Below, one piece after another: positions 53,609-62,152 of a stretch of DNA of 64,000 bases. The DNA is from Streptomyces mirabilis. GTDB lineage: Bacteria; Actinomycetota; Actinomycetes; Streptomycetales; Streptomycetaceae. Each line of letters starts with the position of its first letter. The first letter of the stretch is position 1. A program made the translations under genes and the position numbers. Under the pieces are notes generated by a model, which ran no database searches, was not told the origin of the DNA, and worked only from the letters and a program-made list of their open reading frames with translations. The DNA lies in assembly GCF_039503195.1 (NCBI RefSeq), contig NZ_JBCJKP010000001.1:7254001-7318000 (forward strand). The letters run 5' to 3'.

Positions 53609-54553
53609 ATGACGACGACATCGCAAGAAGCCTTCCTGCGGGCCTTCCACGCCGAACGGCCGGCGGTGACGACGGACGCGTTCGCCGGTGCCCGCGCCGC
53701 GGACGGCCGGTCCAGCTACGAGATCTTGCGCGACCGGGTCGCCGGACACGGGCGGGTACTGGATCTCGGCTGCGGCGACGGCCTGTTGCTCGAACTGCTC
53801 GCCCGGACCGAGGGATGCCGGCCGGCCGGGGTGGACCTCTCCCCGGAAGCCCTGGCGCTGGCGCGACGCCGACCGCTGCCCGCGGGGACGACGCTGTCGG
53901 AGAGCCGGGCCCAGCACCTTCCCTTCGCCGACGACACCTTCGACGCCTGTGTCTCCCACATGGCGTTGATGCTGATGGGCGAGGTGGAACAGGTGGCCGC
54001 GGAAGTGGCCCGGGTGCTGCGCCCCGGCGGCATGCTGGCCTGCGTGATCGGCGGCGGAGCCGTGGGTGGTGAGGCGTACGAGCTGTTCGTCGGGCTGTTG
54101 CGGTCCGCGATCGGGACGGCTCCCGTCGAGCAGCGCATCCCCGCTCTCGGGGACCGGAGGACCCGCAGCCGTACGGGGCTCGACAGTGTTCTCGCGCCGG
54201 CGGGATTCGCTCCGGTCGACTGGGAGACCGTCCCCATCGACCTGAGCGGACCGGTCGAGCAGGTGTGGGCCGCCCTGGCGGGTGTCTATGACGTCGGCCC
54301 CCTCGACGCGGCCACCGTGGAGTCCCTGCGTGTGGACTTCCTCACCGGGGCGAAGAAGCTCACGGCGCCGAACGGGATCGTCCCGTGCGGTATGAACGTG
54401 CATCTCGTGACGACGAATCTGACGACGAATCTGACGGCGAATCCGGCAGCGAGTCCGGCAGCGAGTCCCAAGACGCGTCCGACGGTGAACGCGGCAGCGA
54501 GTCCGGAAGTGCATCCAGGGGCGCATCCGGTGGCCGGAACCGCTACTGCTTGA
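53609..54553 (+). CDS. class I SAM-dependent methyltransferase with a repetitive tail
   Basis: 314 residues. SAM-binding motif I RVLDLGCGDGLLLELLA, acidic residue in PAGVDLSPEAL, motif ALMLMGEVEQVAAEVARVLR and LRPGGMLACVIGG. Methyl acceptor unknown. The last 45 or so residues are low complexity (TTNLTTNLTANP type), encoded by 12-bp DNA repeats, and probably not part of the enzyme fold. Its end overlaps a serine-hydrolase relic on the other strand by 11 nt. Confidence 0.85.
   Translation: MTTTSQEAFLRAFHAERPAVTTDAFAGARAADGRSSYEILRDRVAGHGRVLDLGCGDGLLLELLARTEGCRPAGVDLSPEALALARRRPLPAGTTLSESRAQHLPFADDTFDACVSHMALMLMGEVEQVAAEVARVLRPGGMLACVIGGGAVGGEAYELFVGLLRSAIGTAPVEQRIPALGDRRTRSRTGLDSVLAPAGFAPVDWETVPIDLSGPVEQVWAALAGVYDVGPLDAATVESLRVDFLTGAKKLTAPNGIVPCGMNVHLVTTNLTTNLTANPAASPAASPKTRPTVNAAASPEVHPGAHPVAGTATA
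54410..54466 (+). repeat. 12-bp repeats in the methyltransferase tail
   Basis: Two copies of ACGACGAATCTG (54410-54433), a variant, then two copies of CCGGCAGCGAGT (54443-54466). They encode Thr-Thr-Asn-Leu and Pro-Ala-Ala-Ser units. Confidence 0.85.
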
Positions 54554-54986
54554 GTGCCGCCATCGCGATGCGCCGGGCGACCGGGTTCATCTCCTCGCCC
54601 TTCGCGTCCGTGGCGTTGACCGAGTAGACGAGCGTGCGGGAGAGATCGCGGGTGGCCGCCATGACCGTGGTGTATCCGTACCGCCCGCCCGACTTGAGCC
54701 AGTAGACCCGCCCGCCGTACTCGAAGCGCTCGAGCCCGGCGCTCATGGTGGCCCCGTCGATGCCCGACGGAACCGTGAACATCTCCTTCAGTTGCGGCTC
54801 CGGGACCAGCTCGCCACGGAAGAGGTGGAGGGGCAGCCGCTCCAGGTCCGCCGTCGTGGAGATCATGTCGCCCGCCGCCCAGCGGTCCGCCTGGTTCCAC
54901 TCGGTGACGTCGACGAACTCCGTCGTGCCGTCGCCCGCTTCCTCCTGGTGTGGACGGGACGGTGAGATCATCCTGCGGTCGCCCAC
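54543..54986 (-). pseudogene. serine hydrolase / beta-lactamase-fold relic (C-terminal part)
   Basis: Residues read as the C-terminal half of a D-Ala-D-Ala carboxypeptidase or class C beta-lactamase-like enzyme: RWAAGDMISTTADLERLPLH, LKEMFTVPSG, the KTG-box equivalent WLKSGGRYGYTTVMAATRDL and a C-terminal helix. The N-terminal catalytic SxxK and YxN regions are missing; upstream sequence (54987 onward) shows no continuation in any frame. Confidence 0.75.
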
Positions 54987-55291
54987 CCGAGGGCGGATCC
55001 TCCCCGAGGACGGCCCGCTCCCTGGCGCTGACCCGGATCAACTGCCTTGCTGCGTAAGGGTGGTGTGGGGGATCGCCCTTAGGTGGGGCGTGGTGGAAGT
55101 TTCGAAGGCCGGGAAGGGCAAAAAACTGTTATCGCGGAGGGCGGCTCTCCGTCTCCTGTGTGTCAGGACCGACGAACGGCTGTGATCCGCGACATAGCGC
55201 GCGGACAGGCTCGCCGGGGTGGGGGATCCTGCACTCCCGCCCGTGTGTGCTCAATGACACGGGCGGTCACCGTGGCATCGGAGGGACGTAC
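54987..55291. other. intergenic region before the fused sigma factor gene (305 bp)
   Basis: I see no gene or missing part of the hydrolase relic. It presumably holds the promoter of the gene at 55292. A TTATCGCGG-containing AT-richer patch near 55120-55140 is the only notable feature. Confidence 0.4.
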
Positions 55292-56995
55292 GTGGACGGG
55301 CGGCAGTGGCGCTCCATCATCGAGGGCGCGCAGGCCGGCGACCGACGCGCCCTCGACGAACTCGTCGCGGGCTGGCTGCCGCTCGTCTACAACATCGTCG
55401 GCCGCGCCCTGAACGGGCACGCGGACGTCGACGACGTCGTGCAGGAGACCATGCTGCGCGCCGTCGACAACCTCGGCTCGCTGCGCGACCCGGACAGCTT
55501 CCGGTCCTGGCTGGTCGCCATCACGATGCGGCAGATACGGGAGCGCTCGCGCCGCCGGACGGCCGAGCCGCTGGCCGACGGCGCCGGTGAGCAGGCCGCC
55601 GACTTCGCCGAACTGACCGTGTTGCGGCTCCAGTTGGAGGGGCAGCGCCGAGAGGTCGCGGAGGCGGTGCGCTGGCTCGACGACGAGGACCGCCAACTGC
55701 TCTCGCTGTGGTGGCTGGAGGTCGCGGGCGAACTCACCCGGCGCGAGCTGGCGGCGGCGGTCGGGATCAGCAGGCAGCACGCGGCGGTGCGGGTGCAGCG
55801 GATGAAGCAGCGGCTGGAGATCGCGCGGGACATCGTGCGGGCGCTCGACGGCCACCACCCCGGCGCGGGCAACTCGCCCTGCCCCGACCTGCGGTTGGTG
55901 ACCGCCCGCTGGGACGGGCGGCCCGACTCGGTGTGGCGCAAGCGGCTGGCCCGGCACATCCGGGGCTGCGCGTACTGTTCGGGCGCCCGCGAGGCCGTCG
56001 TACCGGCCGAACGCCTCCTCGTCGGGATCACCCTCGTTCCGCTGCCGGTCGGCTTCACGCTGTCGCTCGCGCTCGGCGGCAAGACGGCGGTCGCCGCCAC
56101 CTCCGTCGGCTGGTCCGCCAAGGTCCTCGGCCTGCTCACCAAGCCCGCCGTCGCCGTCACGGCCGGCGCCACCCTCGCGGCGGGCGGCCTGTACGTCGTC
56201 ACCCGGGCGCCCGACGGCCCGCCCCCGGTCCTCGCCGCGCCCACGGCGGCGAGCACCGCACGTCCACCGTCGGGACGTACGGGAGCGCCGTCCGCCTCCG
56301 CGACCCCCTCACCGTCCCCCTCCGCCTCCCCGTCGCCCTCGCCTTCGAAGACCCGCGTCCAGCTGTACGGCACCGTCGTCGACGCCGTCGACAGCGCGCC
56401 CGCCGCGAGCGCGCTCCCGGCCGCGCTGCCCCGGCGCGCCGAGAAGGGCGTCACCGCCACCGGGGCGCCCGCCACCGGCCTCACCCACCGCGGGGAGACG
56501 GTCACCCTCAGCGGGCAGGGCTACTTCCGGGTCCGCTGGCAGGTCCTGCCCCAGCAGCGCACCGGCGCCCTGCTCATGCCGACCTGGACCGGGCTGAGCG
56601 GCAAGCTCTTCCACGTCGCCTCGGGCGGCGGTCACCGCATGGACGACGTGCAGTCGGGCTCGACGGACGGCACGACCTGGATGGGCGGCCCGTCCGTGGG
56701 CTACGCCGTCCTGCCCTCCGGCACCCAACAGATGTGGCAGAACGAGTACTTCTGGATCGACGGCACCGTCACCCTCCATCAGAACGAGGGCCCCGCCGAC
56801 TACAACCTCTTCGTCCAGCCCTCGACCTGGGACAAGGTGACCGAGGACGTCCGCACCGGTCCCGCCCAGGGAGTGATCCGCTACGGCCTCGTCCGCGACA
56901 ACGGCGAGGACACCGCCCCGGTGCCGCAGTACCTGACCCGCTCGACCCCCACCGACCCGGCGACGGTGAGCGCGCGCTCGCAGGTCACCTCCTGA
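55292..56995 (+). CDS. ECF sigma factor fused to a zinc anti-sigma domain, membrane segments and an outer domain
   Basis: 567 residues. Region 2 spans about 10-85 (DVDDVVQETMLRAVDNLGSL), region 4 about 125-180 (ELAAAVGISRQHAAVRVQRM). Next comes a ZAS-like zinc motif: Cys197, then His222, Cys226 and Cys229 in HIRGCAYC, with the first ligand exactly 25 residues before HxxxCxxC. Hydrophobic segments follow at about 241-262 and 285-304, then a Pro/Ser linker (about 318-353) and a 210-residue outer domain with many Trp/Tyr. GTG start with GGAGGGA. The layout suggests a one-protein signalling device; activity is unproven. Confidence 0.85.
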   Translation: MDGRQWRSIIEGAQAGDRRALDELVAGWLPLVYNIVGRALNGHADVDDVVQETMLRAVDNLGSLRDPDSFRSWLVAITMRQIRERSRRRTAEPLADGAGEQAADFAELTVLRLQLEGQRREVAEAVRWLDDEDRQLLSLWWLEVAGELTRRELAAAVGISRQHAAVRVQRMKQRLEIARDIVRALDGHHPGAGNSPCPDLRLVTARWDGRPDSVWRKRLARHIRGCAYCSGAREAVVPAERLLVGITLVPLPVGFTLSLALGGKTAVAATSVGWSAKVLGLLTKPAVAVTAGATLAAGGLYVVTRAPDGPPPVLAAPTAASTARPPSGRTGAPSASATPSPSPSASPSPSPSKTRVQLYGTVVDAVDSAPAASALPAALPRRAEKGVTATGAPATGLTHRGETVTLSGQGYFRVRWQVLPQQRTGALLMPTWTGLSGKLFHVASGGGHRMDDVQSGSTDGTTWMGGPSVGYAVLPSGTQQMWQNEYFWIDGTVTLHQNEGPADYNLFVQPSTWDKVTEDVRTGPAQGVIRYGLVRDNGEDTAPVPQYLTRSTPTDPATVSARSQVTS

Positions 56996-57038: not shown

Positions 57039-57722
57039 TCAGGCCTTGCGCAGCGCGCACAGCGCGTCGATGCGGTTCGTGGTGATCGAATCCACGCCCA
57101 TGTCCAGCAGCCGGCGCATGGAACGGCGGGTGTCGGGTGTCCAGACGGAGAGCAGATGGCCGCCGCGGTGGACGCGGGCTGTGAGGGCGCGGTCGACCAG
57201 GCTGAAACGGTAGTTGAGCCAGCGCGGCCGTACGGCTTCGAGGAGCGCCGGGCGTGGCGGTGCGACGCTCGTCCAGGTCAGCGCGATCTCGGCGGCGGGG
57301 TCGGCGGCGCGCACGGCCAGCATGGCCGGGGCGCCCGCGCAGTAGTACACCCGGTCCTGGGCTCCGCACTCACGGATGACCTCGACAATCCGGCGTACGG
57401 CCGGGCCGTCGGGCTCTCCCGGCAGGTCGACCAGGACCCGGCTGTCCTTGGTCGCATGGAGGACCTCCGCGAGCGTCGGCACCCCGCCGCCCGTGAGCCC
57501 GCGCACCTCGTCCGAGGAGAGTGACCCGAGCGGCCGCTCCAGCTCCCACAGCCGCTTCAGTGTCTCGTCGTGCAACAGCACGGGCACCTTGTCGCGGGTG
57601 AGCCGTACGTCGATCTCGACCGCGTCCGCGCCCAGTTGGAGCGCGGAACGCAGCGAGTCGATGGTGTTCTCGCGGACGCGATAGGGGTCGCCGCGGTGGG
57701 CCACGGCAGTCACGGTGCGCAT
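57039..57722 (-). CDS. glycerophosphodiester phosphodiesterase
   Basis: 227 residues of the GDPD TIM-barrel: VAHRGDPYRVRENTIDSLRS at the start, with the catalytic His of AHRG, then GADAVEIDVRLTRDKVPVL and LHDETLKRLW, giving the ExD metal ligands and second catalytic His. It would hydrolyse glycerophosphodiesters to glycerol-3-phosphate and an alcohol. No signal peptide, so cytoplasmic. ATG at 57722 fits the family start. Confidence 0.9.
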   Translation of the reverse strand: MRTVTAVAHRGDPYRVRENTIDSLRSALQLGADAVEIDVRLTRDKVPVLLHDETLKRLWELERPLGSLSSDEVRGLTGGGVPTLAEVLHATKDSRVLVDLPGEPDGPAVRRIVEVIRECGAQDRVYYCAGAPAMLAVRAADPAAEIALTWTSVAPPRPALLEAVRPRWLNYRFSLVDRALTARVHRGGHLLSVWTPDTRRSMRRLLDMGVDSITTNRIDALCALRKA

Positions 57723-57742
57723 GGGCCCATTGTGCTGGTCGC

Positions 57743-58804
57743 TCAGAGCGTGAGCCACGCCGAGGCGTAGGTGTCGATCTCCTCGGCGAGGCGCGTCCTG
57801 CCGGCCGGGTCGAGGAAGGACGCCTCCACCGCGTTCTTGGCGAGCGCGGCGAGGCCGAGTTCGTCGAGGTCGAGAAGCCGGGCGGCGACCGCGTACTCGT
57901 TGTTGAGGTCGGTGCCGAACATCGGCGGGTCGTCGGAGTTGATCGTGACGAGGACCCCGGCCCGGGTGAACTCCTTTATCGGGTGGTCGTCGAGGGTGCG
58001 GACCGCGCGGGTGGCGATGTTGGAGGTCGGGCAGACCTCCAGCGCGATGCGGTTCTCGGCGAGGTGGGCGAGCAGCTTCGGGTCCCGCACGGAGCTGGTG
58101 CCGTGTCCGATGCGCTCGGCGCGCAGCTCGTTCAGCGCGTCCCAGACGGTCTCCGGCCCGGTGGTCTCACCCGCGTGCGGCACCGAGCGCAGTCCGGCCG
58201 CGATCGCCTGGTCGAAGTAGGGCTTGAACTGCGGCCGCGGTACGCCGATTTCGGGGCCGCCGAGTCCGAAGGAGACCAGACCCTCCGGACGCAGCCGGTC
58301 GTCGGTCGCGAGCCGCAGGGTCTCCTCGGCCGCCTCGAGCCCCGCCTCGCCGGGGATGTCGAAGCACCAGCGCAGGACGACGCCGAACTCGGCCTCCGCC
58401 GCCTTGCGGGCGTCCTCGATGGCATCCATGAAGGCGCGCTCGTCGATGCCGCGGCGGGTGGAGGACCACGGGGTGATGGTCAGCTCGGCGTAACGGACCT
58501 GCTGCCGGGCCATGTCTCGGGCGACCTCGTACGTCAGCAGCCGTACGTCCTCGGGGGTGCGGATCAGGTCGACGACGGACAGGTACACCTGGATGAAGTG
58601 GGCGAAGTCGGTGAACGTGAAGTAGTCCGCGAGGGCCTCGGGGTCCGTCGGCACCTGGGAGTCGGGGTGGCGGGCGGCGAGGGTGGAGACGATGCGGGGG
58701 GAGGCGGATCCGACGTGGTGCACGTGCAGTTCGGCCTTGGGCAGTCCGGCGATGAAGGCGTGCAGGTCGCGGACGCCCTCGCGGGTACTGAGCTGGTCGG
58801 TCAA
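57743..58804 (-). CDS. mqnX: adenosine deaminase-family enzyme, probably 6-aminodeoxyfutalosine deaminase
   Basis: 353 residues of the adenosine deaminase fold. The metal-binding motif near the start reads ELHVHHVGSA rather than the classical HLHLDGS; the downstream ligands are in SVPHAGETTGPETVWDAL, RIGHGTS and NSDDPPMF. From memory, a S. avermitilis homologue (Sav2595) was shown to deaminate 6-aminodeoxyfutalosine in menaquinone synthesis, and its gene position fits this locus. TTG start with a clear GGGAGG five bases upstream; a longer frame upstream has no support. Confidence 0.85.
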   Translation of the reverse strand: MTDQLSTREGVRDLHAFIAGLPKAELHVHHVGSASPRIVSTLAARHPDSQVPTDPEALADYFTFTDFAHFIQVYLSVVDLIRTPEDVRLLTYEVARDMARQQVRYAELTITPWSSTRRGIDERAFMDAIEDARKAAEAEFGVVLRWCFDIPGEAGLEAAEETLRLATDDRLRPEGLVSFGLGGPEIGVPRPQFKPYFDQAIAAGLRSVPHAGETTGPETVWDALNELRAERIGHGTSSVRDPKLLAHLAENRIALEVCPTSNIATRAVRTLDDHPIKEFTRAGVLVTINSDDPPMFGTDLNNEYAVAARLLDLDELGLAALAKNAVEASFLDPAGRTRLAEEIDTYASAWLTL

Positions 58805-58958
58805 GGATTCCTCCCGGAACGGCGTCCCCGGACCGTGATCGGGCGACGCGGGTGATCGGCTGATCGGTGATTCGGGGATCATCGTAGGCCGCCGCTCACG
58901 GGGTGAAGCCCCGGGCCGTAGCATGACGGCAGGTACGACAGAGGAGGGGACCTCACGC

Positions 58959-59834
58959 ATGTCCGACGACGCGCAGGCGCCACAGGTGCCGCAGGACGCC
59001 GCCGCGACCCCGTGGGCATCCCCGGACCAGTCGGCTCCGCCGCCGACCCAGATCGACATGCCGTCGGCCGCCGGTCCCGAGGACGCGATACCCGGCGGGA
59101 ACCCCCAGCCGGGTTCCCCGCCCGGCGGCTCCCCGGACAACGGCGCCGCCGGACCGCGACCCGAGCCGAACCCCTGGGCACCGCCCGCGGACCAGGCACC
59201 CTCCCACGCGCCCGGTGCCCCCACACCCCCCTCGGTGCACAGCCAGCCGACGGTCGTCGCCCTCCCCGGAACCGGCACCCAGCCCCATCCCCAGTCCCCG
59301 CCCCAGTCCTGGGACAACCCCTTCGCGTCTCCCGCCGCCGCACCCGCGCCCCACCCCCGGCCCGGGCCCGGAGAGCCGGTTCCCCCGCCGCCCATCGCTC
59401 CCGAGGGCCCCGGCCAGGTCCCGTACGGCTACGGATACGGCTACCCGGCCTACCCCATGCCGGGACCCGGATACCCGGGCAGCGCCGGCTACGGCTGGCC
59501 GATGATGCCCCCGGAGCCGAGCAACGGCATGGGCACCGCCGGGCTGGTGCTCGGCATCATCTCGGCCGTCGTGTTCTGTCTGTGGCCGATCGCGATCATC
59601 CTGGGGATCCTCGCGGTGATCTTCGGGGTGCTGGGGCGACGCAGGGCGCACCGCGGGGAGGCGAACAACCCCGGTCAGGCGCTGGCCGGGATCATCTGCG
59701 GAGCGGTCGGCATCGCGCTCGGCATCGCGATGATCGTGGTCTTCTTCGTCCTCCCGGACAACAGCGGCAACAGCGACCCGTTCAACGGAGACGACGGCTA
59801 CTCCACTTCACTCGTCGTGCCGCACCTCGGCTAG
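58959..59834 (+). CDS. DUF4190 membrane protein with a Pro-rich N-terminus
   Basis: 291 residues. About 190 residues of Pro/Gln/Ala/Gly-rich disordered sequence, ending in Tyr/Gly/Pro repeats (YGYGYGYPAYPMPGPGYPG), precede two membrane segments: GTAGLVLGIISAVVFCLWPI with its extension, and IICGAVGIALGIAMIVVFFV. Between them is GVLGRRRAHRGEANNPGQA, characteristic of DUF4190. Function unknown. ATG with GAGGAGGGG. It is divergent from the deaminase. Confidence 0.85.
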   Translation: MSDDAQAPQVPQDAAATPWASPDQSAPPPTQIDMPSAAGPEDAIPGGNPQPGSPPGGSPDNGAAGPRPEPNPWAPPADQAPSHAPGAPTPPSVHSQPTVVALPGTGTQPHPQSPPQSWDNPFASPAAAPAPHPRPGPGEPVPPPPIAPEGPGQVPYGYGYGYPAYPMPGPGYPGSAGYGWPMMPPEPSNGMGTAGLVLGIISAVVFCLWPIAIILGILAVIFGVLGRRRAHRGEANNPGQALAGIICGAVGIALGIAMIVVFFVLPDNSGNSDPFNGDDGYSTSLVVPHLG

Positions 59835-59859
59835 ACCGCCAACCGCTCCCGCGCCTCGA

Positions 59860-60420
59860 CTAGTCGTCCCCCAGGAGTCGCTCCCGCGCCTCCATCAAGG
59901 CGAATCCCAGCAGGTTCGGCCCCCGCCACCGCTCGGGATCCGCCGCCCGCTCGTCGTCCGCCGCGAGTCCTATGCCCCAGACCCGGTCCATGGGGCTGGC
60001 CTCGACCAGCACCCGCGTGCCCGTGCCGAGCAGGAACGCGCGCAGCTCGGGATGGGCGGCGAACTTGTGCACGCTGCCCTCGACGACGATCCCGAAGCGC
60101 TCGCGCTCCCAGGTCGCCTCGTCGAAGCCGCGCACGAGCCGCCCCACCTTCTTGGCGAGCGCGGGGCTGGACGCCTCGATCGCGCGCCGCTGCGCCTCCG
60201 CGTCGCCGAAGAGCCGCGCCTTGCCCGCCATCATCCAGTGCTCGGCGGTCGCGTAGGAGACACCGTCCACCACGAACGGTGACGGCCACCACTGGCTCAG
60301 GCAGCTCGCACTCACCTGACCGTCCGGTCGCGGACGGTGCCCCCAGAAGTGCAGGTACTTGACCCTTGCCCCCGAGCGGACCGCGCTGACCAGCGCTTCC
60401 CAAGAATCGATCTTCGCCAT
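59860..60420 (-). CDS. NADAR (YbiA-like) family protein
   Basis: 186 residues. The NADAR fold is indicated by FWGHRPRPDG, then LSQWWPSPFVVDGVSYATAE, HWMMAGKARLFGD and DRVWGIGLAADD. Members hydrolyse N-glycosidic bonds: YbiA-type enzymes act on riboflavin-pathway intermediates, and others remove ADP-ribose. Which applies here is unknown. The start is the ATG before AKIDSWEAL. It is divergent from the second polyamine operon. Confidence 0.87.
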   Translation of the reverse strand: MAKIDSWEALVSAVRSGARVKYLHFWGHRPRPDGQVSASCLSQWWPSPFVVDGVSYATAEHWMMAGKARLFGDAEAQRRAIEASSPALAKKVGRLVRGFDEATWERERFGIVVEGSVHKFAAHPELRAFLLGTGTRVLVEASPMDRVWGIGLAADDERAADPERWRGPNLLGFALMEARERLLGDD

Positions 60421-60503
60421 GCACGCCACTGTGGCACGCACCACTGACATTCCGTCCCGCCTTTTCCATGGGGACTCGACACCTGGTCGACAGATTCCGT
60501 CGC

Positions 60504-60541
60504 GTAACCAAAAGGCAACAACGGAATCACTTGTTGGAGTC
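60504..60541 (+). promoter_or_regulatory. GlnR-like spaced motif and inverted repeat before the polyamine operon
   Basis: GTAAC-n6-GCAAC-n6-ATCAC-n6-GAGTC follows the GlnR box spacing, with matches of 5/5, 4/5, 4/5 and 3/5. It overlaps an inverted repeat CAACAA-n9-TTGTTG (60516-60536), an alternative operator for another regulator. It lies about 90 bp upstream of the aldehyde dehydrogenase start in an unusually AT-rich patch. Confidence 0.5.
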
Positions 60542-60628
60542 CCTTCGCTCTGTCAGGATCGGCACTCAAATCGAGCTGGAGCTACGCCCACCCCTGCGGC
60601 AGCGGGGAGAACGGCGGAGGAGAGCGAC

Positions 60629-62152
60629 ATGCACAATCCGGGCCATCGCTTCCAGGCGCAGGACCGCTTCGCGGACGGCGCGCAGTACATCGCGGGCCGG
60701 TTGACCAAGGGCACATCGGGCCGTACGCACGCGGTCGTCGACCCCGCCACCGGCGACGAGGTCTACACATACGAGCTGGCGAGCACCGTCGACGTGGACG
60801 CGGCCGTCGCCGCCGCCCTCGACGCGTTCCCCGGCTGGGCGGGCGTCACCCCCGGCGAGCGCTCCGACGCCCTGCACCGCTTCGCCGCCGTGCTCGCCGA
60901 CCGCGCCGAGGAGTTCGCCCGGGCGGAGTCGCTCCAGTGCGGAAAGCCCCTCAAGCTGACCCGCGAGTTCGACGTGCCCGGCACCATCGACAACATCGCC
61001 TTCTTCGCGGGCGCGGCCCGGCATCTGCAAGGGCAGTCCGCGGGCGAGTACTCCGGCGACCACACCTCGTACGTACGCCGTGAGCCCATCGGTGTCGTCG
61101 GCTCCATCGCGCCCTGGAACTACCCCCTCCAGATGGCCGCCTGGAAGATCCTCCCGGCGATCGCCGCGGGCAACACGATCGTGCTGAAGCCCGCCGAGCT
61201 GACCCCGTTGACCTCGCTCCTCTTCGCCGAGGCCGCCACCGCGGCGGGCATCCCGGACGGCGTGATCAACATAGTGACGGGGGCCGGGAGGGACGCCGGC
61301 GAGCACCTCGTCGGCCACCCCGACGTGGCGATGACCTCCTTCACCGGGTCCACCGCGGTCGGCAAGCGCGTCGCCGAGATCGCCACCTCGACCGTCAAGC
61401 GACTCCATCTGGAACTGGGCGGCAAGGCCCCCTTCGTGGTCTTCGACGACGCGGACCTGGACGCGGCCGTGAACGGCGCGGTCGCGGGATCGCTCATCAA
61501 CAGTGGGCAGGACTGCACCGCCGCCACGCGCGCGTACGTACAAAGGCCCCTCTATGAAGAGTTCGTCGCCAGGACGGCCGCCCTGATGGCGAGCGTCCGC
61601 CTCGGCGACCCGTTCGCCTCCGGCACCGACCTCGGCCCGCTGATCTCGCACGCCCAGCGCGACCGCGTGGCCGGATTCGTCGACCGGGCCCGCGGCTACG
61701 CACGTGTGGTGACCGGCGGAGAGATCCCCGAAGAGCTCAAGGACGGCGCCTACTACCGGCCCACGCTCGTCGCCGACGCTCCCCAGGACAGCGAGATCGT
61801 CCAGTCCGAGATCTTCGGTCCCGTCCTGGTGGTGCTCCCCTTCGACAGCGACGACGAGGGAATCCGGCTCGCCAACGACACTCCGTACGGTCTCGCCGCC
61901 TCCGCGTGGAGCCGGGACGTGTACCGGGCCAACCGTGCGACCCGCGAGATCAAGGCGGGCTGCGTGTGGGTCAACGACCACATTCCGATCATCAGTGAGA
62001 TGCCGCACGGCGGCTACAAGGCGTCCGGCTTCGGCAAGGACATGTCGGCGTACTCGTTCGAGGAGTACACCCAGATCAAGCACGTCATGTTCGACAACAC
62101 CGCGGTCGCCAGGAAGGACTGGCACCGCACGATCTTCGGGGATCGGCCCTAG
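60629..62152 (+). CDS. gamma-aminobutyraldehyde-type aldehyde dehydrogenase (second copy)
   Basis: 507 residues, ALDH family. Catalytic Cys in [15 protein letters not shown], catalytic Glu in [12 protein letters not shown], and IAPWNYPLQMAAWK in the cofactor region. It probably oxidises aminobutyraldehyde or a similar polyamine breakdown product. ATG with GGAGGAG. It heads a rightward operon with a polyamine binding protein and PotA, and it is a paralogue of the dehydrogenase at 44408. Confidence 0.9.
   Translation: MHNPGHRFQAQDRFADGAQYIAGRLTKGTSGRTHAVVDPATGDEVYTYELASTVDVDAAVAAALDAFPGWAGVTPGERSDALHRFAAVLADRAEEFARAESLQCGKPLKLTREFDVPGTIDNIAFFAGAARHLQGQSAGEYSGDHTSYVRREPIGVVGSIAPWNYPLQMAAWKILPAIAAGNTIVLKPAELTPLTSLLFAEAATAAGIPDGVINIVTGAGRDAGEHLVGHPDVAMTSFTGSTAVGKRVAEIATSTVKRLHLELGGKAPFVVFDDADLDAAVNGAVAGSLINSGQDCTAATRAYVQRPLYEEFVARTAALMASVRLGDPFASGTDLGPLISHAQRDRVAGFVDRARGYARVVTGGEIPEELKDGAYYRPTLVADAPQDSEIVQSEIFGPVLVVLPFDSDDEGIRLANDTPYGLAASAWSRDVYRANRATREIKAGCVWVNDHIPIISEMPHGGYKASGFGKDMSAYSFEEYTQIKHVMFDNTAVARKDWHRTIFGDRP

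Follow-up and report, generated by a model that had tools for sequence, protein, structure and literature searches.

One-protein signalling systems in which an ECF sigma factor is fused to an anti-sigma domain have already been described, namely the groups ECF48, ECF52 and ECF53 and, within ECF52, the Streptomyces coelicolor protein SCO4117. According to the available part of a review (PMC8999054), members of ECF53 and ECF48 consist of a sigma factor, a zinc anti-sigma domain, one or two membrane helices and an extension of up to 400 residues, a layout that the protein described here appears to share; neither a promoter nor a regulon for ECF53 was seen in that review text. Some ECF52 and ECF53 members are predicted to bear carbohydrate-related domains, without experimental validation as far as the available text states (PMC10766802). 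SCO4117 resembles our protein in layout, having a sigma factor, a zinc finger, a membrane region, a Pro-rich part and an outer carbohydrate module, and the available text of its description (PMC5826349) proposes positive autoregulation and release by a protease, calls its promoter motif theoretical and regards its post-translational control as not yet understood. In IutY of Pseudomonas putida (ECF243), a sigma factor and a membrane anti-sigma are likewise fused and the sigma part is released by proteolysis, but IutY belongs to a Gram-negative bacterium, where the siderophore aerobactin is the cue for its cell-surface signalling (PMC8999054, available text). A more remote parallel is SigI/RsgI of Clostridium thermocellum, where substrate-sensing anti-sigmas control cellulosome genes and RseP cleaves RsgI within its membrane helix (PMC12203970, available text). 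There, unlike here, sigma and anti-sigma are two separate proteins. SigI, moreover, is not an ECF sigma factor, and the outer domains of RsgI are other ones.

The gene examined here occupies positions 55292..56995 on the + strand of the window (the whole stretch of 64,000 nucleotides that was analysed) and encodes 567 amino acids followed by a stop codon. Its GTG start lies 6 nt 3' of a ribosome-binding site, GGAGGG (55280..55285, +), and coincides in an alignment with the start position in many relatives. The N-terminal part is an ECF sigma factor, with regions 2 and 4 present and regions 1 and 3 absent: region 2 spans residues 24-90 (55361..55561, +; Pfam Sigma70_r2, E=1.5e-13), and region 4 spans about residues 118-180 (55643..55831, +), as judged from helices in the structural model and from the extent of the NCBIfam sigma70-ECF match TIGR02937 (residues 20-176, E=2.8e-22). 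About 380 residues trail the sigma part, which fits the extension of up to 400 residues given for ECF48/52/53-like proteins in the available review text (PMC8999054). They include a Pro/Ser/Thr-rich linker (residues 306-357; 56207..56362, +), which varies among relatives, and a C-terminal domain of 210 residues. A preliminary description of this DNA had proposed that a single chain combines a sigma factor with a zinc anti-sigma and an additional domain at the C-terminus, the last two separated by membrane segments and a Pro/Ser linker, and these domains and the linker are borne out. Because the full layout is retained in the best 120 homologs listed (one of which, P0014, is a partial record; protein homolog counts here are the best 120 matches per search), it is not a product of chance. 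Nor is it unprecedented, given ECF48, ECF52, ECF53 and SCO4117 (PMC8999054 and PMC5826349, available texts), so that of the earlier suggestion of a poorly described system the part that stands concerns the unrecognised C-terminal domain and not the all-in-one design. The model of the full-length protein is of low confidence (pLDDT 72.7, pTM 0.44, with residues 247-338 below 50), and we therefore make no claim about how the sigma and anti-sigma parts pack.

The zinc anti-sigma core comprises C197, H222, C226 and C229 (55880..55978, +), four columns that are invariant in 34 aligned sequences. In the translation the expected C-x24-H-x3-C-x2-C reads C197-x24-H222-x3-C226-x2-C229, that is, the Hx3Cx2C motif and upstream Cys of class I zinc anti-sigmas. 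Poor conservation of these ligands had been named beforehand as grounds for abandoning the fused-switch idea; the pattern (C, 20-34 residues, HxxxCxxC) is kept in 120/120 close homologs and in 113/118 further relatives of the sigma module, the five without it (P0279, P0280, P0281, P0286 and P0288) covering 62-78% of the query. From its sequence, this domain would be expected to bind zinc through the four residues. Seven weaker sigma matches elsewhere in the same genome (L082-L088) yielded six sigma frames, none with HxxxCxxC, the frame of L084 not being found.

The outer domain (residues 358-567; 56363..56992, +), delimited by AlphaFold2 and by relatives without the sigma part, had been singled out for structure prediction, and AlphaFold2 returns a confident beta-sandwich (pLDDT 94.9 for 217 residues from 351 on). 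Its description as unrecognised holds: residues 358-567 have no match in Pfam up to E=1, carbohydrate-binding families included, and the outer-domain relatives P0222 and P0203 have none up to E=0.01. Among the best 25 of 70 NCBIfam families, all are sigma models at the N-terminus and none falls in the outer domain. A PDB sequence search with the outer-domain profile gave no match up to E=1, no significant match emerged among solved structures, and the viral structure library gave none at E<=0.001. The outer domain thus defines a family without a Pfam name. The likeness of our protein to ECF53 and ECF48 is one of layout, with an outer domain that matches no Pfam family.

The search for the outer domain in other proteins that had been suggested at the outset turns it up unattached to a sigma part as well, in proteins from other actinomycetes that look exported and in one named as Fusarium. 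Among 120 outer-domain matches listed, we set aside 95 (domain only, no start, or N-terminus too short) and 5 with sigma or zinc residues; of the remaining 20, P0127, P0131, P0135, P0138 and P0142 resemble, by eye, pieces of the fused protein. Fourteen of the 15 proteins that could thus be judged have a hydrophobic stretch (at least 1.6) within their first 75 residues, the exception being P0197. P0233 of Kribbella, one of the 95 set aside, has a start that by eye resembles a signal peptide. Two records, P0222 and P0211, carry the names Fusarium solani and Pestalotiopsis and come from contigs measuring 1.44 Mb and 0.79 Mb; unless these records are contaminated, the distribution points to transfer of the outer domain between actinomycetes and fungi. 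In 296 sampled genomes of the phylum the domain was matched in 5, four of them belonging to the same genus (the own genome included); the fifth match (G268, E=2.9e-4), which lies inside a long membrane-protein frame, was not accepted.

What precedes the outer domain has a wider distribution. Searched with residues 1-309, the relatives at about 55-60% identity over about 80% of the query have other C-termini: AbfB in 23 of the 120 module relatives listed, mainly from Streptomyces, and CAP in 22 of the 120, mainly from Kitasatospora (one of each checked against Pfam, P0304 and P0299, respectively). These two proteins have the same sigma/zinc module as ours and differ in the outer domain, and since one module bears AbfB, CAP or the present domain, it constitutes a platform with exchangeable outer domains. 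Collagen-like matches (Pfam PF01391) occur in some family members (P0263, P0268 and P0276), and long Gly-rich repeats separate the zinc domain of P0263 from its second hydrophobic segment.

Two hydrophobic segments were expected between the zinc domain and the linker, and both exist: one at residues 239-262 (56006..56077, +) and one at residues 284-305 (56141..56206, +), with Kyte-Doolittle maxima of 2.0 (about 241-262) and 1.6 (about 284-305) in a 19-residue window. Two membrane spans would, however, return the last domain to the cytoplasm, so that "two spans" and "outer domain" are mutually exclusive and the preliminary description cannot be right on both. Several features suggest that the first segment is not a span. 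Its core, PAE-x-LL-x-G-x-ALVP-x-P, is common to CAP- and AbfB-type relatives, with a conserved Val-Pro-x-Pro inside the hydrophobic stretch; the model places a helix (residues 239-247) directly behind the zinc core; the spacing between the two segments varies from 36 to 98 residues across the three groups; and among CAP-type relatives the first segment reaches 1.6 in 12/22 and the second in 20/22 (the CAP- and AbfB-type lists used for hydropathy were compiled by hand). In class I anti-sigmas, according to the available text of PMC7406223, helix 4 is attached via a flexible linker and binds sigma region 2. From these points together we infer that the first segment is the anti-sigma helix 4 rather than a span and that the second, where model confidence is low and hydropathy is the guide, is the single membrane span that remains. 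The AbfB-type relatives, in which the first segment passes 1.6 in 23/23 and the second in 10/23, speak against the helix-4 reading, and both segments reach 1.6 or more in 78/121 family members, so that the topology given here is provisional.

Those 78 members, and the greater hydrophobicity of the first segment, are what would favor a protein that crosses the membrane twice and whose C-terminal domain senses a ligand inside the cell. We consider such an arrangement very improbable, considering that most outer-domain relatives devoid of a sigma part have the look of exported or anchored proteins, that AbfB and CAP occupy the same position in the chain, and that the first segment carries the conserved Val-Pro-x-Pro and is the weaker one in the CAP type. 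AbfB and CAP domains are typical of secreted proteins.

Downstream of the sigma gene, 64 to 76 of 80 loci retain the block at 57039-62152, whose genes are by eye glycerophosphodiesterase-, adenosine deaminase-, DUF4190-, NADAR- and aldehyde dehydrogenase-like. A beta-lactamase-like gene (by eye) is present upstream in 50/80 relatives' loci, facing the other way, and the window has at 54543-54986 (-) a remnant of such a gene, by eye its C-terminal part. Beyond this remnant lie methyltransferase-, MFS- and regulator-like genes that are found in 0 to 5 of the 80 loci, which suggests an insertion or rearrangement there. The flanks of the sigma gene are therefore the beta-lactamase-like fragment and the glycerophosphodiesterase-like gene and not atrA, which in most species adjoins the gene for SCO4117, whose outer module is classed as smart00776 (PMC5826349, available text); adjacency to atrA is a weak criterion for ECF52, however, as S. 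avermitilis departs from it too (same source).

Aligning the upstream DNA of 79 relatives with the window reveals one strongly conserved element, A-rich bases followed by TGTTATC, 16 nt and CGTCTCC, which we take to be an ECF-like promoter by its spacing and its CGTC -10. In the window the predicted promoter covers 55120..55156 (+), with AAAAAAC, TGTTATC (55127-55133), the 16-nt spacer and CGTCTCC (55150-55156). The motif lies upstream in 80/80 sequences, that is, 79 loci and the window (L062, with too little upstream DNA, was left out of the count). It is directly upstream in 71/80, with a spacer of 16 in 67, 15 in 3 and 12 in 1; L039 and L073 have it with one mismatch, and in L053 it lies 434 nt upstream of the sigma gene. 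In the other six (L004, L010, L036, L077, L079 and L080) the sigma gene has a lyase gene as its immediate upstream neighbor in the same orientation, and the motif stands in front of that lyase gene. The motif proposed for SCO4117, CSGYN-17bp-SRHA, is unlike this one (PMC5826349, available text).

Throughout the own genome, TGTTATC-N15-19-CGTC occurs at 3 sites and its reversed pattern at 0; the sites precede, one each, the sigma gene, the gene for the lyase P0360 and the gene for a beta-helix-like protein, P0361, the latter two with a spacer of 15. A chance origin of these sites was considered and rejected, the L096 site pointing to the beta-helix gene and not to the divergent gene beside it, which by eye encodes (+ strand from about 1640 of that locus) a GH43-like protein with a ricin-type C-terminal part. 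Allowing one mismatch gave 5 sites against 3 for reversed controls, and no further targets were called. Three motif-bearing loci in a genome differ from the pleiotropic effects described for SCO4117 (PMC5826349, available text).

Across 150 Streptomyces genomes, TGTTATC-N16-CGTC[CT]C gives 63 sites, which are spread over 35 of the genomes, compared with 2 for the reversed pattern, and all 63 sites precede the same three families: the sigma gene (28), a PF05426-type lyase (19, among them one remnant) and a beta-helix-like protein (16, one of them a frame-broken gene). Families were assigned via short sequence signatures, with L098, L109, L122, L134, L139 and L146 assigned by hand and two lyases (P0360 and L126) and one beta-helix protein scanned with Pfam. 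The promoter motif is still intact before both the lyase remnant (L122, 1500-1570) and the broken beta-helix gene (L098, 1500-1940). The sigma promoter itself supplied the motif, so only the 35 sites before other genes are independent. The motif core is identical in the three sets, and the bases preceding it are AAAA before the sigma gene and mostly TTTC before the targets; hence the sites were not simply copied from one another. In each of the 12 beta-helix genes that a script classified, 6-7 nt separate the site from the predicted start, which would suit a leaderless message. In G360, G394, G416 and G433 the outer domain follows a lyase site of like orientation at a distance of 2.4-2.9 kb, which fits adjoining lyase and sigma genes.

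The sites also track the protein. We found the outer domain in 35/150 of these genomes (the scan comprised 101 + 51 genomes, two in common, and its coverage of the 150 follows from listing order), and a motif site is present in 33 of these 35 genomes versus 2 of the 115 others (Fisher 2e-28); for sites not before the sigma gene the figures are 24/35 and 1/115 (Fisher 2e-18), although both values are too strong, as the genomes are related and not independent. The table linking loci to genomes was compiled by hand. The two exceptions among the 115 are G426, in which a contig end interrupts the sigma gene, and G377, where a lyase site is present and the outer domain absent; conversely, an exact site is missing from G246 and G407 despite their outer domain, of which G407 has only fragments. 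Assignment of the motif to this sigma factor comes from upstream position and co-occurrence, and another sigma factor might read it and govern all three genes, our protein being a mere member of the regulon. Such an arrangement seems quite improbable to us in view of the co-occurrence, of the lyase gene directly 5' of the sigma gene in the six loci mentioned above and of the frequency of autoregulation among ECF sigma factors (PMC5826349, available text), all of which argue for recognition of the motif by the fused protein.

As to the targets, P0360 matches Pfam PF05426 (Alginate_lyase; E=3.7e-11, 43.5 bits versus a gathering threshold of 22.2) and has a Tat signal above the cut-off, and L126, the one lyase checked among the 19, matches PF05426 at 38.8 bits. 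Residues 445-484 of P0360 (L094/L127) contain LAATG, a hydrophobic stretch and arginines and resemble an LAXTG sortase anchor, with the NCBIfam LAXTG match below cut-off (21 vs 27 bits). P0361, known from its first 688 residues (its end was not reached), begins with what by eye resembles a signal peptide; its NCBIfam matches to fusolisin and autotransporter repeats and its Pfam match to PATR (24.7 vs 27 bits) are below cut-off, and we call it only beta-helix-like. Lyase and beta-helix-like protein are thus both apparently exported. PDB sequence searches gave no match for the lyase up to E=0.01 or for the beta-helix protein up to E=0.1. We found no literature joining an ECF sigma factor and a polysaccharide lyase in Streptomyces; publications that join an ECF sigma factor, alginate lyase and an anti-sigma concern other bacteria, as far as their available text goes.

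The computed architecture, zinc-pattern conservation, promoter motif, target families and co-occurrence are probably best explained by a one-polypeptide sigma/anti-sigma switch with a small lyase regulon. In the resting state, sigma regions 2 and 4 would be held by the zinc anti-sigma domain of their own chain together with the helix that follows it (residues about 197-247), while the single membrane span (about 284-305) would place the C-terminal beta-sandwich outside. The signal met there would most likely be a polysaccharide outside the cell or some condition of its surface, polysaccharide being suggested by the lyase target and by AbfB in the sister proteins. Upon the signal the sigma part would be released, probably via regulated intramembrane proteolysis, and the freed sigma factor would transcribe from TGTTATC-N16-CGTCTCC promoters its own gene, as positive feedback, and the genes for the lyase and the beta-helix-like protein.

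The release step could take another form, with the ligand pulling the anti-sigma part off and the sigma factor acting in its membrane-bound form or once the redox state of the zinc site has changed, the switch and regulon being otherwise the same. Conformational activation is described for ECF41 and ECF238, whose members bear C-terminal extensions (PMC8999054), and the conserved zinc pattern would suit it; since the groups of the same layout, ECF48/52/53, are expected to use proteolysis and IutY is shown to do so (PMC8999054), and the zinc motif of class I anti-sigmas bound to the membrane may have a structural role (PMC7406223; both in their available texts), we regard this form as unlikely and retain proteolytic release.

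A complete circuit for sensing and degrading polysaccharide, in which the beta-sandwich binds an acidic polysaccharide and the sigma factor drives its own gene, the lyase and the beta-helix gene, is a tentative extension of the switch to which we give somewhat less than an even chance. Alternatively, the outer domain may sense the producer's own envelope or matrix, and the lyase and beta-helix protein may remodel its surface, for example, in development. The LAXTG-like end of P0360, although below cut-off, would allow the lyase to stay on the wall, SCO4117 as a fused sigma of ECF52 affects development (PMC5826349, available text), and the beta-lactamase-like gene upstream points the same way. 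Nevertheless, a role confined to the own surface appears rather unlikely given that the lyase family, judged by its name, acts on uronate polysaccharides and that the outer domain is also found in a protein named as Fusarium.

While the architecture itself is known, what is new here is the outer domain occurring without a sigma part, the conserved promoter, the predicted three-gene regulon and the helix-4 reading of the first hydrophobic segment. In the available texts, the signal and direct targets of actinobacterial fused ECF sigma factors are open, and the effects of SCO4117 are broad (PMC5826349). The strict motif and its three target families supply a reporter and narrow the candidate inducers to a few, which makes the switch directly testable. 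Finally, the occurrence of AbfB, CAP and the present domain on one module suggests that a shared one-protein switch is fitted with different sensors in turn.
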